From: Pandoraea capi
GTDB lineage: Bacteria > Pseudomonadota > Gammaproteobacteria > Burkholderiales > Burkholderiaceae
Assembly (NCBI RefSeq): GCF_902459735.1
Contig: NZ_CABPRV010000005.1
Span: 337,083-401,082, forward strand
DNA length: 64,000 bases
Direction of reading: 5' to 3'
Shown here: in pieces, positions 28,645 through 54,717 of the stretch
Layout of the letters: every line of letters starts with the position of its first letter
How positions within the stretch are numbered: the stretch's first letter is position 1
The notes under the pieces: model-generated
What the model saw: only the letters and a program-made list of their open reading frames with translations
Told to the model about the DNA's origin: nothing
The model's database searches: none
Made by a program: the position numbers and the translations under genes

Positions 28645-29130
28645 ATGCCGAGAATCTCGTTCATTCAAGCGGGAAGTGTGCCGAATCTGTTGGCCGCTCT
28701 GGACATGATCGCGTGGTCCGAATTTACCTCTCGCATTTCTGCGTCGGACGATGGCTACAACGTCATCGTGGGCGGCGGGTTGTTTCAGGGATATGCCGAT
28801 CACCCGAGGCAATCGGTATGGATCAAGCGCTTCAATGTCTGGTCGACAGCGGCGGGCCGGTATCAGGTGCTCTCGCGATACTACGACGCCTATAAGGCAC
28901 AGCTTGCGCTGCCCGACTTCTCGCCCATCAGTCAGGACCGCATCGCAATCCAGCAGATCAAGGAGCGTGGCGCGCTTGCCGACATCGGGGCAGGGCGAAT
29001 TCAATCGGCAATTTCGAAATGCCGAAACATCTGGGCGAGCCTGCCCAACGCTGGCTACGGCCAACACGAAAACACACTCGACCAGTTGCTCGATGCCTAT
29101 CGGCGTGCGGGTGGCGTCATTGCTTCGTAA
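28645..29130 (+). CDS. Endolysin, lambda R-like lytic transglycosylase
   Basis: The protein has 161 residues and closely resembles lambda R along its length: LLAALDMIAWSEFT with the catalytic Glu, DGYNVIVGGGLFQGYADHPR, STAAGRYQVLSRYYDAYKAQ, DRIAIQQIKERGALADIGAG and IWASLPNAGYGQ. It lacks a signal peptide, so it needs a holin to reach the peptidoglycan. It cleaves the MurNAc-GlcNAc bond to form 1,6-anhydro ends. It precedes the holin, the reverse of the lambda order. Confidence 0.92.
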   Translation: MPRISFIQAGSVPNLLAALDMIAWSEFTSRISASDDGYNVIVGGGLFQGYADHPRQSVWIKRFNVWSTAAGRYQVLSRYYDAYKAQLALPDFSPISQDRIAIQQIKERGALADIGAGRIQSAISKCRNIWASLPNAGYGQHENTLDQLLDAYRRAGGVIAS

Positions 29131-29144
29131 CCGGGGAACGATCG

Positions 29145-29438
29145 ATGGAAGACCACAAGACAGCCTGGACGATTCTGGGCCTGTTGGTGTTAGGGGCTGC
29201 TATGGGACTCGGGAAACTTCTCGTCAGCGACGAGGTATTGACGTGGCGGCTGGTCATCGGCCGCGCGATCTTGGGGGCCGGTGCATCGATGATCGCCGGA
29301 GTAGCGCTTATCCAGATCCCGGACATTCCGCCGCTCGCGCTGCTGGGTATCGGCAGCGTGCTCGGCACGGTGGGCGCGCAGTTCATCGAACTTCAGTTGA
29401 AGCGTCGCGCGGGCCTGTTCCGCGGCGACCGGGGGTAA
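29145..29438 (+). CDS. Holin
   Basis: The protein has 97 residues from the ATG at 29145. Three hydrophobic stretches are visible: about 8-25 (TAWTILGLLVLGAAMGLG), 37-57 (LVIGRAILGAGASMIAGVAL) and 61-80 (PPLALLGIGSVLGTVGAQFI), followed by a basic tail (LKRRAGLFRGDRG). This is the layout of class I-type phage holins of the LydA-like group. It should open the membrane for the endolysin. Confidence 0.82.
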   Translation: MEDHKTAWTILGLLVLGAAMGLGKLLVSDEVLTWRLVIGRAILGAGASMIAGVALIQIPDIPPLALLGIGSVLGTVGAQFIELQLKRRAGLFRGDRG

Positions 29439-29441
29439 GCG

Positions 29442-29954
29442 ATGTCGGTCACCGATACCCATGAAGAGAAAGAAACGCTCGCCATCGACGTGCTGTTGCC
29501 GGGGCACGATCCACGCACGACAACGCCGTTGTTCACGCACACCCGTCTTACGCTCATCGAGCGCGAGGGTGGCCGGTGTTTCGTGTGCGGCGGCACCGAG
29601 CAGGATACGGGCCATCCGCTTGAGGCCCATCACCATCCGATCGAGCGCTGCACCGCCAACATGATCGACTGGCCGCGCCTGGCCGAGGACTGCCGCGCGG
29701 GAATCTGGGGCGAGCATGCTCGGGCCTTCGACTGGGACGGATTCCTCGCGGTAACGCCGCTCGACCCGTACCGGTTCGTCGACGACATGACCGTCAACGG
29801 GATGCTGCTGTGCAAAGAGCATCACGTCGGCAAGGGGGAGGGCATCCATATGCTGCCGCTTCCTTTGCTGATCGCTCAGAAATACGCCGTCGAGGGCTAT
29901 CAGTTTACCCCCACGGAAATCATCCACCACCACGAGAAGGACGAATCAGCATGA
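29442..29954 (+). CDS. HNH-like endonuclease domain protein
   Basis: The protein has 170 residues. It has CFVCGG, then LEAHHHPIERC and MLLCKEHHVGKGEGIHMLPL, giving two Cys pairs and the HH-N/H arrangement of an HNH zinc finger. Similar proteins sit in lysis regions of Burkholderia prophages. HNH nucleases often assist terminase, but here the terminase genes are 22 kb away, so its role is uncertain. It ends by overlapping the next gene. Confidence 0.68.
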   Translation: MSVTDTHEEKETLAIDVLLPGHDPRTTTPLFTHTRLTLIEREGGRCFVCGGTEQDTGHPLEAHHHPIERCTANMIDWPRLAEDCRAGIWGEHARAFDWDGFLAVTPLDPYRFVDDMTVNGMLLCKEHHVGKGEGIHMLPLPLLIAQKYAVEGYQFTPTEIIHHHEKDESA

Positions 29955-30175
29955 GCCAGACATCCAGCGTCGTTACCGGCGGCATCACGATCAGCGCCGC
30001 AACCCTTCAGCCCGCGGTGAGCTGGCTGCTCAGTCAGACGTTCCATACACCGGTGCCGGATACCGTGTCGGCACTCGTCACCGGCCTCGTTGCCGCCGCT
30101 GTGCATGTCGCGCTGAATGAGCTTTCGCGACGTTACGGTTCGGCCAGCACGCCGCCGATGGGCGCCGCGCAGTGA
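29951..30175 (+). CDS. Small membrane protein of the lysis region
   Basis: The protein has 74 residues, with a hydrophobic helix at about 38-56 (VSALVTGLVAAAVHVALNEL) and a weaker one near 10-30. It overlaps both neighbours by four bases. It may be a second holin, an antiholin or an inner-membrane spanin partner for the lipoprotein that follows; none of these is shown by sequence. Confidence 0.6.
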   Translation: MSQTSSVVTGGITISAATLQPAVSWLLSQTFHTPVPDTVSALVTGLVAAAVHVALNELSRRYGSASTPPMGAAQ

Positions 30176-50871: not shown

Positions 50872-51078
50872 TCAGTCCTCCTGACGGACCGCGTGCATCT
50901 TGCGGCGTGCGTTCCACATCGCCATGTCTTTGCGCGTACGTACGCGTTCGCTGATGTTGATGCCGGTCGGTTGCGCTTGCGATTTGGAGACGGCGACGTC
51001 ACTCGCCTCGCTGCGCGCCTGCACCATCATGACGAGCGTAAATAGCGAGGCGGCTAGCGCCAGCAGGATCAGCTTCAT
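50872..51078 (-). CDS. Small secreted or membrane-anchored protein
   Basis: The protein has 68 residues. Residues 1-22 (MKLILLALAASLFTLVMMVQ) form a signal anchor or signal peptide; the rest is polar and basic (RSEASDVAVSKSQAQPTGIN, then RVRTRKDMAMWNARRK). Upstream lie four 10-base-phased repeats at 51109-51148. No family is recognised. Confidence 0.62.
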   Translation of the reverse strand: MKLILLALAASLFTLVMMVQARSEASDVAVSKSQAQPTGINISERVRTRKDMAMWNARRKMHAVRQED

Positions 51079-51108
51079 AAGGCCCCCGGTGAATCCCTGG
51101 TGAATCTG

Positions 51109-51148
51109 GTCGTTATTGATCGTTATCGGTCGTTATCAACCGCTATGG
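51109..51148. repeat. Four 10-base-phased CGTTAT repeats
   Basis: GGTCGTTATT, GATCGTTATC, GGTCGTTATC and AACCGCTATG follow each other without gap. The exact 10-base period puts each copy on the same face of the helix. The block lies 30-70 bases upstream of the 51078 start and could be a regulator-binding array, or a simple slipped repeat. Confidence 0.6.
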
Positions 51149-51602
51149 CCATGATGGCCCGACAGGATCGTTGTGATCGCCATCGTGCGTCGTCGTGCTC
51201 GTTCGGGTCAGCCCTTTACAAGGGCCGTGCCGACGGGCGTTTCGCGACGCGTCTTTCATGCACTGCTGAGGGACGTCGCTGCCACAACTGCCTGACAGGC
51301 GCGTGCCGGGGCCTCGGGGTGTCACTACCATTGGCATCGCCGGCATCATAGCGGGCGAATGTGACATCTTTCCGGGGTTTCCCAAAACCTGGCCGCGCGA
51401 CGCAGCGCAGCAAGGCGTGACGTGTCCTCTACCGTATAGCGACGCGTGCAGCGAAAAGTTTAGAAATCGTGACGATTTTTTCCTGACATGGGCCGTGAAC
51501 GCTATATCGATGCGCTCACGGCCCGTGCTTAGCGGGCACAGCGGCAGGCAGGGCTGTCGACGTTGTCCACGTTTTCTACGCTTGCTACGTCCCAGAACGG
51601 AC
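51149..51602. other. Intergenic region without a supported gene
   Basis: About 450 bases between the repeat block and the holin-like gene. Open frames are arginine-, serine- or proline-rich and lack ribosome sites. No endolysin or spanin gene was found, which matters for the chitinase export idea. Confidence 0.5.
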
Positions 51603-51803
51603 TTACGGTTGCCCGGAAATGTCGTGGTTTTGCCGACCGCGCGCGGCATTCTCCGGAAGCGCCATCGCCGCGAGCGATGCGATTGCCGCCCCTGCCTGCG
51701 CGAGTTCGTGCATGACGTCCGGCGACATGCCGAGCGACACCGAAAGCCCTGTCAGGCCGGCCCACGTCGACGGTTCCAGCAGTCGCGACAGGAGAAAGCG
51801 CAT
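51603..51803 (-). CDS. Small holin-like membrane protein
   Basis: The protein has 66 residues (MRFLLSRLLEPSTWAGLTGL, then LGMSPDVMHELAQAGAAIAS LAAM split over two helices). RLLEPSTWAGL is a motif that I know from the N-termini of many short phage holins, followed by two hydrophobic segments. The ATG at 51803 comes 2 bases after the chitinase stop with GGGAG seven bases upstream, so the two are cotranslated. It may form pores for export of the chitinase, as holins do in type 10 secretion. Confidence 0.6.
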   Translation of the reverse strand: MRFLLSRLLEPSTWAGLTGLSVSLGMSPDVMHELAQAGAAIASLAAMALPENAARGRQNHDISGQP

Positions 51804-51805
51804 GA

Positions 51806-53416
51806 TCATTCTCCCGTCGACTCGTCGAGCGACGTCTTCCCGCTGAAGTAGAACGGCGTCATGTCGATGTGCGACACCGTCGCCTTCTGCCCGAGGCCTT
51901 CGTGCGCGGCGTTCGCCAGCACCCCGTTGTCCTGGTCGATGGTCCATGTGAAGAGACCGCCGAGGCCGTTGCGTTTGACGTAATCCCCCTTGGCCCGCAC
52001 CGTGCGTGGCGTGTCAAGCGACATGAACAGACCGCTGGACGGTTGGTACAGAAAGTCCGCGTCGGCGACCGGATCGGTGTAGAGCGTGAAGCCATTACGC
52101 GCCGTGCCGTCCTCCAGATCGAGGTAATTGCGCAGCACGTCGTAGTACTCCGTCGTGCCCGATTCGAACGTACCGGCGGTGATGTCGTCGCCCGGCGAAT
52201 AGGTGCCCGACAGGGCGCTGACCTGTGCGATTTGCGCCTGAAGCGCGTTACGCGAGTAGGCTGCGTAGCCGATATGCACCTTGGCGAGCGGCACGCCGGC
52301 CTGCCGCAACCAGTTCACGGCACGGTCGATGGAGAAGCCACCGGCGTCGGCCGGGTTCGTGTCGTGCAGATTGGTTTGATGGGCGAGCGTCGGCGCCCAC
52401 GGCGTGCCGAAGAAGTCATACGTCATCAGGTTGATGCGCGACACGCCGGCAGCGATCAATCCCGGCAGATTCGCGTGACGCATGTCGGCCACGTCGGCTG
52501 ATGCGGCGACCGAGATCTCCACGTCTTTGCGTCCTGCGGCCACGAGGGCTTTTTTCAGATCGCTAACGAGCGCTGCGTAGTTCGGACCGTCCGTATCGTC
52601 ATACACGTTGCCGTCGTTGCCGGGCGAGCCGGGATACTCCCAGTCGAGATCGATTTCGGTAAACATCGGGAAGCGCTTGAGCAAGTCGACGACGCTCGCA
52701 CAGAACGTCTTGCGTCGCGCGCTGGTGCCGGCCATGCCGTGAAACGCCTGACTCATGGTCCAGCCACCGATGGCGAGGGCGAGTTTGAGCGCCGGATTCT
52801 TCGCGTGCAACAGACGCAATCCGCCGAGCACTCCCTGCGCGCGTGACTGCTGGAACATCGGAATGACATCGTTGCTGACCCATCCCGGAAAGCCGCAGTT
52901 GCGATAGGCGAGCACGTCGCCCCAACTATCGACGAAGGTGGCCTGATCCGGCTTGCGTACGAAGTCGGTCGCCGCGCGTGCAATCGTTTGTGCTTTCTCA
53001 CCCTGATCGCCGACGATGCCCGCGAAGCCCACGATCAATCGGTCGTAGGCGAAGGGGTCGAGCAGCATCAGATCGACGCCGCGTCCGGCGGCCTCGTTGC
53101 TGAAGTCGCCGTCGAGACGTCCGTCGTATTGCGACCAGTCGGTGTAGTAACCGGAGACCTCGAATGCGTTCTTTGCGTAGCGGTTATAGACACGTCGGGC
53201 GACCCGCGCCGAGGTGTACGACAGTTGCGTCGTGCTGGTTGCGGGATCGAAGCCGTTCTGCGCGTAGGTCGTTTCGGTTGCGCCGTCTTGCGGGTCCGTC
53301 GGGTAGACGAGTTCGCTTTGCGCGGTGGCCGTTGCGGCCTGCGGGGCAGTCGCGGTGGTCTGTGATGTTTGTTGAGGCATGCGGGGCGTCGGGATGTTAC
53401 GCATGGTATCGGACAT
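51806..53416 (-). CDS. GH18 chitinase without an evident signal peptide
   Basis: The protein has 536 residues. The N-terminal 50 are polar (NIPTPRMPQQTSQTTATAPQ), with no signal peptide. The GH18 barrel begins near FEVSGYYTDWSQYDGRL and has LALAIGGWTMSQAFHGM, the catalytic FTEIDLDWEYPG (DxDxE, about residue 255), RINLMTYDFFGTPW and GLGGLFTWTIDQDNG. It resembles the chitinases that accompany insect toxin complexes. It would hydrolyse chitin. It is followed by a holin-like gene and preceded by a two-domain winged-helix regulator. Confidence 0.9.
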   Translation of the reverse strand: MSDTMRNIPTPRMPQQTSQTTATAPQAATATAQSELVYPTDPQDGATETTYAQNGFDPATSTTQLSYTSARVARRVYNRYAKNAFEVSGYYTDWSQYDGRLDGDFSNEAAGRGVDLMLLDPFAYDRLIVGFAGIVGDQGEKAQTIARAATDFVRKPDQATFVDSWGDVLAYRNCGFPGWVSNDVIPMFQQSRAQGVLGGLRLLHAKNPALKLALAIGGWTMSQAFHGMAGTSARRKTFCASVVDLLKRFPMFTEIDLDWEYPGSPGNDGNVYDDTDGPNYAALVSDLKKALVAAGRKDVEISVAASADVADMRHANLPGLIAAGVSRINLMTYDFFGTPWAPTLAHQTNLHDTNPADAGGFSIDRAVNWLRQAGVPLAKVHIGYAAYSRNALQAQIAQVSALSGTYSPGDDITAGTFESGTTEYYDVLRNYLDLEDGTARNGFTLYTDPVADADFLYQPSSGLFMSLDTPRTVRAKGDYVKRNGLGGLFTWTIDQDNGVLANAAHEGLGQKATVSHIDMTPFYFSGKTSLDESTGE

Positions 53417-53503
53417 GCTGTGGCTCCTGAGAGTCTATGGACAGGTGCCGTCGCCGGGCGGCGCTGGCCGCTGCGGCATCGGCGTAACCAGCGTCGCGTT
53501 CGC

Positions 53504-54385
53504 TCAGCGGTCGCGCCAGCGCAAACGACGTGTCAGCGCGCGCAGTGCGTGAAGTGCGAGGCGAGCGCGATGCCACGTCGCCGACATCCCCGTGCCGGCG
53601 CGTTGCGATGCGCCTGGCGTTTGCGCCGACACGTCTGTCGGATCCGGGGTGGGCGTAAGCGCGGTATCGCCAGACGCGAACCGATAACCGACGCGTGGCA
53701 CCGTGACGATGTGCCGGTGCAGCCCGAGCGGAATGAGTTTGCGTCGAAGGCGGGAGACGACCTGCATCAGGTTCGTGTCGTCCTGATCGGGACGCGCCGG
53801 CCAGAGCATCGCGATGAGCGTACGTTTGTCATGGACGACATCGACGGGGGAACGCAGTGCACACAGCAGGCGGTACTCAATCTGCGGAATCTTCACGATG
53901 ACGCCGTGGCGTCGCACCTCGCCGTGCCCGTCGCGGGCGACGCCATGCTGAAGCGGCAACGCAAGCGACGTGGCGCCCGTCGAATCGTCAATACATAACG
54001 CGTCGGTCACGGCATGAGGACGTTCGCTACCGCGGTCCGCTATCGACGGCTCGGTGGTGGGCTCGGCGGTGGGCGTAGCGGGCGAGGGCGACGGCATCTC
54101 GAAGCGATACCCGACGCGGGCGACGGTGACGATGGCGCGTTGCAGACCGAGCGGGGCAAGCGAGCGCCGCAGACGCGAGACGAGTTGCACGAGCGCGGCG
54201 TCTTCCATCCATTGGGCACGCCGTCCCCACAGCGCTTGCATCAACGCATGCTTCTCGAACGCCGTGCCCGCACGCCCGGCGAGCAGCACCAACAAACGCT
54301 TTTCCTGCTCCGACAGACGTGCGGCAATGCCGTTGTGGTGGACGAGATTGGTCACATCGTCGAGATCGAAAGGCGACTTCGGCAT
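53504..54385 (-). CDS. Regulator with two OmpR/ToxR-type winged-helix domains
   Basis: The protein has 293 residues from the ATG at 54385; the frame extends to 54445 without a better start. Two Trans_reg_C domains are visible: about 10-100 (ARLSEQEKRLLVLLAGRAGT, VQLVSRLRRSLAPLGLQRAI, VARVGYRFEMP) and 160-245 (VKIPQIEYRLLCALRSPVDV, MQVVSRLRRKLIPLGLHRHI, VPRVGYRFASG). They are clearly related, so this is an internal duplication. No receiver or membrane domain is seen. It lies 87 bases upstream of the chitinase in the same direction and probably controls it. Confidence 0.8.
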   Translation of the reverse strand: MPKSPFDLDDVTNLVHHNGIAARLSEQEKRLLVLLAGRAGTAFEKHALMQALWGRRAQWMEDAALVQLVSRLRRSLAPLGLQRAIVTVARVGYRFEMPSPSPATPTAEPTTEPSIADRGSERPHAVTDALCIDDSTGATSLALPLQHGVARDGHGEVRRHGVIVKIPQIEYRLLCALRSPVDVVHDKRTLIAMLWPARPDQDDTNLMQVVSRLRRKLIPLGLHRHIVTVPRVGYRFASGDTALTPTPDPTDVSAQTPGASQRAGTGMSATWHRARLALHALRALTRRLRWRDR

Positions 54386-54717
54386 GGGGCGCTCCTGGTA
54401 ACGAGTAAGGGACGCCAACCGTAGCGACGCGTATTCGCCTGTCACAAGGCATCAAGCGAGCGCAAGCCCATCACAGCACGCCATAGCCCGACGGATGCGG
54501 GGCGGGTGCCGGAGGCATGGCAGACGATGCGTCGGCCATGGCGCGTGTCGACAGCTACGCTGTTCTCGTCGAGTGCCTAGGCGATGTCACGCATCGCGCC
54601 CGCAAGGTAAGATAGCAGCCATATGTCGCCACAGGCGGCCGGTCGGGCTCGACGCATGAGAGACCGCGTCACCGCCGGATGCCATGGCCGACGCCCCGTA
54701 CACTCCCGGATCCCGTC

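Follow-up and report, generated by a model that had tools for sequence, protein, structure and literature searches.

A candidate holin-only chitinase release locus in Pandoraea

In a stretch of 64,000 nucleotides from Pandoraea capi (contig NZ_CABPRV010000005.1, positions 337,083 to 401,082; hereafter, the window), three genes lie in series on the minus strand: a transcriptional regulator is first, a glycoside hydrolase family 18 (GH18) chitinase follows, and a gene for a 66-residue holin-like protein is last. We propose, with a probability of roughly 0.6, that this trio is a reduced, holin-only locus for chitinase release that resembles a type 10 secretion system (T10SS). The strongest argument for this proposal, drawn from sequence comparisons, is that holin families seem to replace one another alongside a single type of cargo: within one chitinase clade, four different holin-type families are found alongside the enzyme, that of the 66-residue protein (the RLxEPSTW family) included. 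Because four such families accompany a single clade, the holins appear to be functional partners of these chitinases, not chance neighbors; this argument is indirect, and most of the related loci outside Pandoraea have no holin close by.

An initial annotation of the window had read the trio as a possible export locus that may either borrow an endolysin from elsewhere, such as an R-like enzyme encoded by a prophage, or represent a reduced version of known systems. Comparison supports the core idea of an export locus, but not the R-like enzyme as a general partner. The reduced version is the best fit: some related loci carry a holin and an endolysin, and those of Pandoraea have no endolysin of six families within 19 kb.

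Organization and conservation of the trio

The trio comprises the features below; ribosome-binding sites were assigned by eye.

54392..54396, minus strand: AGGAG, likely ribosome-binding site of the regulator gene
53504..54385, minus strand: transcriptional regulator, 293 residues, tandem OmpR/ToxR-type winged helices (Pfam Trans_reg_C in two stretches)
53424..53428, minus strand: AGGAG, likely ribosome-binding site of the chitinase gene
51806..53416, minus strand: GH18 chitinase, 536 residues, presumed cargo (Pfam Glyco_hydro_18, E 1.1e-56)
51811..51815, minus strand: GGGAG, likely ribosome-binding site of the small gene, within the end of the chitinase gene
51603..51803, minus strand: 66-residue holin-like protein (phage RLxEPSTW family), which would be the membrane-permeabilizing part

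As the initial annotation had it, the small gene's ATG is 2 bases past the chitinase stop codon, and the GGGAG upstream gives the gene a ribosome site of its own. We examined the conservation of this arrangement in 32 Pandoraea genomes, that of the window among them. The trio is intact, with its order kept, in 21, and in 20 of these it comes after the same esterase gene (Pfam Esterase), which we take to encode S-formylglutathione hydrolase. Of the 32 genomes, 21 encode a full-length chitinase, and another (G009) retains a 51-residue remnant. Every full-length chitinase gene has an uninterrupted small gene immediately 3′ of it, at a spacing of 2 bases (11 genomes), with a 4-base overlap (nine) or at a spacing of 24 bases (one). 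A genome without chitinase and regulator (G013) has an open small-gene frame whose usual start codon is gone and whose last residue is altered. The median dN/dS of the small gene is 0.079 (codons 2–50; 190 pairs from 20 genomes, with the Pandoraea terrae locus, L043, omitted), indicating strong purifying selection. This value and the intactness of the gene in 21 of 21 genomes lead us to conclude that the small gene is real and is kept together with the chitinase; we therefore reject the notion that it is a chance open reading frame (ORF). Hairpins resembling terminators are present right after it in some relatives, most clearly at L033 (by eye, unscored).

The claim that the chitinase shows no signal peptide was upheld: its highest 11-residue hydropathy before the catalytic core is 0.55, whereas the two signal peptides used as controls reach 2.51 and 1.92. 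This check is a crude hydropathy measure, not SignalP. The highest value among the 21 Pandoraea chitinases, 1.77 (L039), lies upstream of the chosen start and is near that of the weaker control; among 68 chitinases from outside the genus, a value above 1.7 is found only in L240, where the stretch is signal-like, and in L236, which is cut off. On hydropathy only, a cryptic signal peptide is not favored. The GH18 active-site stretch of the window enzyme reads IDLDWE. Its first Asp, which we take to be a position of the catalytic motif, is replaced by Asn in eight of ten Pandoraea rows of alignment A3 and is kept in the chitinases of the window and of P. terrae; the Asn may alter chitinase activity in most species.

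A domain scan located the two winged helices of the regulator at residues 11–98 and 157–237, in line with the earlier reading of this protein, and the regulator matches the winged-helix profile of ToxR-like (ChiR-type) regulators. It has no C-terminal transmembrane segment (highest 19-residue hydropathy, 0.97). Hydropathy is below 1.6 in 20 of the 21 Pandoraea regulators and reaches 2.27 in that of P. terrae. In the Enterobacterales loci, a single winged helix is the rule, and 20 of 25 regulators have a hydropathy of at least 1.6, indicative of a membrane segment (1.59 in L241, from Salmonella enterica subsp. diarizonae). Two winged helices are found in 21 of 21 Pandoraea and 13 of 14 other Burkholderiaceae loci; judged by these counts, the tandem arrangement is a Burkholderiaceae feature. 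A membrane segment C-terminal of both winged helices is present in P. terrae (L043), Paraburkholderia xenovorans (L174) and Paraburkholderia sp. Ac-20340 (L178). A soluble, fused pair of winged helices may bind tandem sites without membrane sensing.

Relatives of the chitinase and their neighbors

An alignment of the chitinase was scanned against 84,980 species genomes, giving 116 relatives, the best 80 of which were kept. They include enzymes from Cupriavidus, Paraburkholderia, Trinickia and Pararobbsia (56–63% identity), Citrobacter amalonaticus (63%) and many other Enterobacterales (about 47–56%), as well as from two actinobacteria and one cyanobacterium. In a tree of 73 rows (L180, L195, L206, L236 and L244 omitted), the Pandoraea chitinases form one clade (support 100/99) beside those of other Burkholderiaceae, C. 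amalonaticus and Nocardia. A pattern and tblastn search together with the tree places the window chitinase in a clade that includes the cargo chitinases of Salmonella-type T10SS operons. Its closest solved structures are Chitinase 2/Chi2/Chi1 (E about 1e-112); Chi1 and Chi2 presumably belong to a Tc complex. The chitinases of Nocardia panacis (L182) and C. amalonaticus (L176) are 57–63% identical to that of the window, and because they are nested in or beside the Burkholderiaceae group, the tree makes horizontal transfer likely for both.

We surveyed the neighborhoods of 68 non-Pandoraea loci (69 minus L180, a Pandoraea), looking within 5 kb with profiles seeded from these loci; flanks of 4.5 kb or more were available on either side in 57 of them. 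A holin of the classes searched is present in 25 loci and an endolysin in 23; 22 have both, one has an endolysin only, and three have a holin but no endolysin (L178 and L232 with complete flanks, L212 cut short). Also, 39 of the 68 loci have a match to the regulator profile. The pairing of chitinase and holin, for which the initial annotation had suggested a survey, is thus universal among the 21 Pandoraea loci with a full-length chitinase but partial outside the genus. The annotation had named a lack of conservation of the pair as a refuting case; within Pandoraea, these counts exclude it.

Three named holin families were found beside these chitinases: Phage_holin_3_3 (PF16083) in Salmonella diarizonae, Phage_holin_3_1 (PF05106) in Yersinia proxima and Rosenbergiella, and Phage_holin_8 (PF16931) in P. 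xenovorans, Trinickia and Paraburkholderia sp. Ac-20340. Gene orders vary accordingly. Many Enterobacterales, such as S. enterica subsp. diarizonae (L241), have a LysR-like gene (a label taken from the Salmonella paper), the PF16083 holin, a PF05838 (GH108) endolysin, a regulator with a single winged helix and the chitinase. P. xenovorans LB400 and Trinickia terrae have a divergent tandem winged-helix regulator, a PF11860 muramidase, the chitinase and PF16931. In Y. proxima, the chitinase is followed by the PF05106 holin and a PF13539 endopeptidase; in Rosenbergiella, by the same type of holin and a 136-residue ORF without a Pfam match, which was counted as an endolysin by its place.

Two other types of neighbor were observed. 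In all eight loci L152–L159 (mostly Cupriavidus) and in L181 (Paraburkholderia), a lipobox protein of ~80–110 residues (CTVISVEGDHNRIRDAGGHGG-like, by eye) comes after the chitinase, with no holin; those of L152–L159 have no Pfam match. A protein of ~1000 residues (cluster c10), possibly a second cargo, comes after the chitinase in several Enterobacterales loci, namely L202, L203, L205, L215, L231, L234, L237 and L241.

How does the trio compare with systems that have been studied? The Salmonella ChiA T10SS consists of the LysR-type STM0014, the holin STM0015, the peptidoglycan hydrolase STM0016, ChiR (STM0017), which is ToxR-like with a membrane segment, and ChiA (STM0018); secretion of ChiA is reported to require both the holin and the hydrolase (PMC10109510). 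The gene order at L241 matches this operon. The window shares with the Salmonella system the GH18 clade (51% identity to the L241 chitinase), the regulator profile and a holin near the cargo. In contrast, the nine window genes tested include neither an endolysin nor a LysR gene, the holin-like gene is of another family and is 3′ of the chitinase, and the regulator has two winged helices and no membrane segment where ChiR has one winged helix and such a segment. The loci of P. xenovorans LB400 and T. terrae are from the same family as the window and resemble it in having a 59–60% identical chitinase, a tandem winged-helix regulator and a holin directly 3′ of the chitinase. They differ in the muramidase between regulator and chitinase, the length of the chitinase (875/917 residues), the holin family and the divergent orientation of the regulator.

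In Yersinia entomophaga, the PhoB-like RoeA is reported to control a holin lysis cassette (PMC10101115). A PhoB-like regulator, a holin and the Chi2/Chi1 enzymes are thus points of likeness; however, that cassette comprises a holin, the endolysin PepB and the spanins Rz/Rz1 and is located apart from the cargo (PMC10847048), whereas the holin-like gene of the trio stands alone beside its cargo. Clostridioides difficile TcdE is described as a holin-like protein with no defined working endolysin partner (PMC12150058), and it, too, is encoded beside its cargo. TcdE is likened to the 66-residue protein by gene arrangement, and it differs in its Gram-positive host, which has no outer membrane, and in its unrelated cargo.

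All characterized T10SSs are reported to have a holin and a peptidoglycan hydrolase as their core pair (PMC13284979). In Pandoraea, a holin-like gene is next to the cargo in 21 of 21 genomes, by homology and synteny only, and we found no dedicated peptidoglycan hydrolase of six families paired with it. Because the hydrolase half of the pair was looked for and not found, we do not file the locus as a T10SS; by sequence comparison, it probably works like one. The consulted passages of a Burkholderia review name T10SSs in Salmonella, Yersinia and Serratia only, and our literature search found no paper that combines Pandoraea, a chitinase and a holin; for Paraburkholderia, the one match was unrelated.

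The 66-residue protein and its phage relatives

The small protein has the marks of the RLxEPSTW family, namely an RL-x-EPST start and Gly/Ala-rich helices (alignments A1 and A4). Its start had been described as phage-holin-like, and comparison bears out the phage link, the family being one of phages and often located near endolysins. A profile built from the Pandoraea copies and one prophage copy detected 71 relatives in viral contigs and gave matches, some of them weak, in 17 non-Pandoraea genomes (398 genomes of the family were scanned). All 79 copies inspected (71 viral, eight genomic) contain RLxEPS; because RL[LR]EPSTW was one of two patterns used to find the viral copies, their common RLxEPSTW is partly due to construction. 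An ORF with an endolysin motif lies no more than 2.5 kb away in 26 of the 79 phage or prophage loci, on the same strand in all 26; the 79 loci represent 57 distinct small proteins and the 26 represent 19. Ten of these ORFs, hand-picked from the 26 loci, were compared with PHROG, and nine matched an endolysin family (that of L140 failed).

Eleven of the 15 closest copies are beside homologs of genes from a single Pandoraea prophage, L045 (genome G015, C1:2926000-2945999), and six of these 11 are beside homologs of its capsid or packaging ATPase. The prophage carries genes for a capsid protein (phrog_8536), a packaging ATPase (phrog_2666) and a lambda-R-like endolysin, and its last gene encodes a small protein of 54 residues. 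We read it as a tailless, PM2/PRD1-like virus. Like the 66-residue protein, the prophage copy has the family's start (here RLREPSTWAG) and LPE after the second helix; unlike it, the copy comes after a lambda-R-like endolysin and has no C-terminal tail. It had no tblastn match among GenBank phages at E 1 or better. Relatives of the L045 capsid or ATPase were also seen in viral contigs L078, L082, L086, L088, L097, L098, L128 and L131. From these kinships, we consider that the 66-residue gene was probably acquired from a phage, a small tailless one.

The tail itself is a conserved feature of the chitinase-linked copies: after a variable linker, they have a C-terminal SxQP-type motif (alignment A1, which holds the Pandoraea small proteins and the prophage copy; L026 was omitted as identical to L027). 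QP is present in all 20 distinct Pandoraea rows, with silent variation in the QP codons, and the tail is absent from the aligned prophage copy. Alignment A4 is broader, with 36 of the 57 distinct phage/family copies, L045 and ten Pandoraea rows. A structural model of the 66-residue protein has helices at residues 2–8, 11–24, 28–48 and 52–59 and is of modest confidence (mean pLDDT, 72). The best PHROG match (E 0.12) is to a family of function unknown, and a tblastn search of GenBank phages gave nothing of note (best E 0.9). A profile search of the PDB with A1 returned two helix constructs from spike proteins (25 residues; E 0.0011 and 0.088), which we judged spurious. By position and shape only, “phage holin family” is the best label for this protein.

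The cell-wall step and competing explanations

If the protein is indeed a holin, which enzyme opens the wall? Nine window genes in and around the trio were tested, and no endolysin is among them; the initial annotation was right that none is adjacent. In relatives, the genes flanking the trio belong mostly to these same clusters, and their unshared ORFs lay outside the family search. We searched the genus for six endolysin families and found matches to GH108 in two of the 32 genomes, GH24 in seven, M15_4 in none, lambda-R-like enzymes in 15, PF11860 in nine and GH19 in five (four above the cut-off). Where a match shares a contig with the trio, the shortest distance between them in any of the 21 trio genomes is 19.8 kb (G001); in the genome of the window, it is 22.5 kb. 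None of the six families occurs in all 21 trio genomes, amidases and lytic transglycosylases lying outside this search. Three trio-bearing genomes (G002; G018, five contigs; G031, two contigs) have no match to any of the six, and G028 has only a sub-cut-off GH19 match. Spanins belong to some T10SSs only; no spanin candidate turned up either, although no spanin-profile search was made. Three other features of the window deserve mention:

28645..29130: lambda-R-like enzyme of the window prophage
28645..29438 and 29810..30175: prophage lysis region, in which the lambda-R-like endolysin precedes a pair of small, hydrophobic ORFs that resemble holins (holin label by eye)
50872..51078: 68-residue gene with a hydrophobic N-terminus, downstream of the trio

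The 68-residue gene was rejected as a partner of the trio, being present in 28 of the 32 genomes, including seven of the 11 without a trio.

In the mechanism that we propose, the tandem winged-helix regulator, a ChiR homolog, would activate chitinase and small gene jointly. The chitinase would be made in the cytoplasm, since no signal peptide was seen, and presumably folds there. The 66-residue protein, presumably phage-derived, would then permeabilize the inner membrane, and the chitinase would leave the cytoplasm through it. The dedicated peptidoglycan hydrolase of many related loci is missing here, as far as the six families go; passage across the peptidoglycan and the outer membrane might instead depend on a general wall enzyme, on an enzyme that varies among strains or on the death of some cells.

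Several results weigh against this proposal. The 21 Pandoraea cases are not independent of one another because they share common descent and one genomic place. Neither a holin nor an endolysin of the searched classes is near the chitinase in 42 of the 68 non-Pandoraea loci; a holin of those classes is missing from all 15 Photorhabdus/Xenorhabdus loci and from 11 of the 14 loci of other Burkholderiaceae. A consensus scan of positions 51000–54700 revealed no promoter-like sites, and its two terminator-like sites are both on the opposite strand and no more than expected by chance, with none on the strand of the genes. The 66-residue protein matches no named holin family (no match in Pfam or NCBIfam up to E 1), and the best match of the L045 prophage copy to such a family has E 0.05. 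Finally, the hydropathy of the small protein over 17 residues is weak (0.94 in the first segment, 1.52 in the second), and Foldseek found no match to its model among viral structures. One, two or zero membrane passes are all compatible with this hydropathy profile.

Could the holin be served by an endolysin encoded elsewhere in the genome, so that the trio would be part of an ordinary T10SS with a split cassette? The prophage enzyme at 28645–29130 shows that the window's own genome has a candidate, and R-like enzymes are indeed commoner in trio genomes (13 of 21) than in trio-less ones (two of 11). Nonetheless, the absence of any tested family common to all 21 genomes, with three genomes having none, makes this very unlikely, and prophage lysis genes are normally repressed. 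With none of the six endolysin families conserved alongside the holin-like gene, the window's R-like enzyme cannot be the general answer, and we reject it in that role. A second alternative does without an endolysin: the holin might kill or depolarize a few cells, whose autolysins would finish the work and spill the chitinase, in the way that colicins are released via lysis proteins. Holins can kill without an endolysin, a fact in favor of this alternative. The T10SSs of Y. entomophaga and Serratia are reported to lyse a subpopulation of cells, there with an endolysin and spanins (PMC10847048), but ChiA secretion in Salmonella is reported to be non-lytic (PMC10109510, PMC13284979). We regard release by holin-only lysis, suggested by analogy, as somewhat unlikely. 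Both of these alternatives are special cases of the options for the wall step in the proposed mechanism.

A different view is that the small protein is no export holin but a phage-derived protein with another task: it might anchor something in the membrane, regulate the chitinase or act like an immunity protein, while the chitinase exits otherwise or acts inside the cell. Such a task is compatible with the weak hydropathy, with the failure to match a named holin family or a known fold, and with the 43 of 68 chitinase relatives without a holin of the searched classes nearby; the conserved SxQP-type tail, which the prophage copy does not have, points to an additional role. Set against these points are the clearly recognized, differing holin families beside related chitinases and the occurrence of the small-protein family near endolysins in phages; we consider this view distinctly unlikely.

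The release locus that we favor touches on an open dispute. Recent papers debate whether the cargo of T10SSs is freed through the death of a few cells or leaves cells that stay alive (PMC10847048, PMC13284979). A natural locus in which cargo and regulator are joined by a holin-like gene, with the endolysin missing, asks what a holin alone does, without recourse to artificial overexpression. In its boldest form, the answer would be that a holin alone can export a folded, signal-less enzyme from a Gram-negative cell, the 66-residue protein with its new tail being a minimal device able to work without an endolysin or spanin of its own. From comparative evidence of the present kind, we hold that answer to be unlikely.

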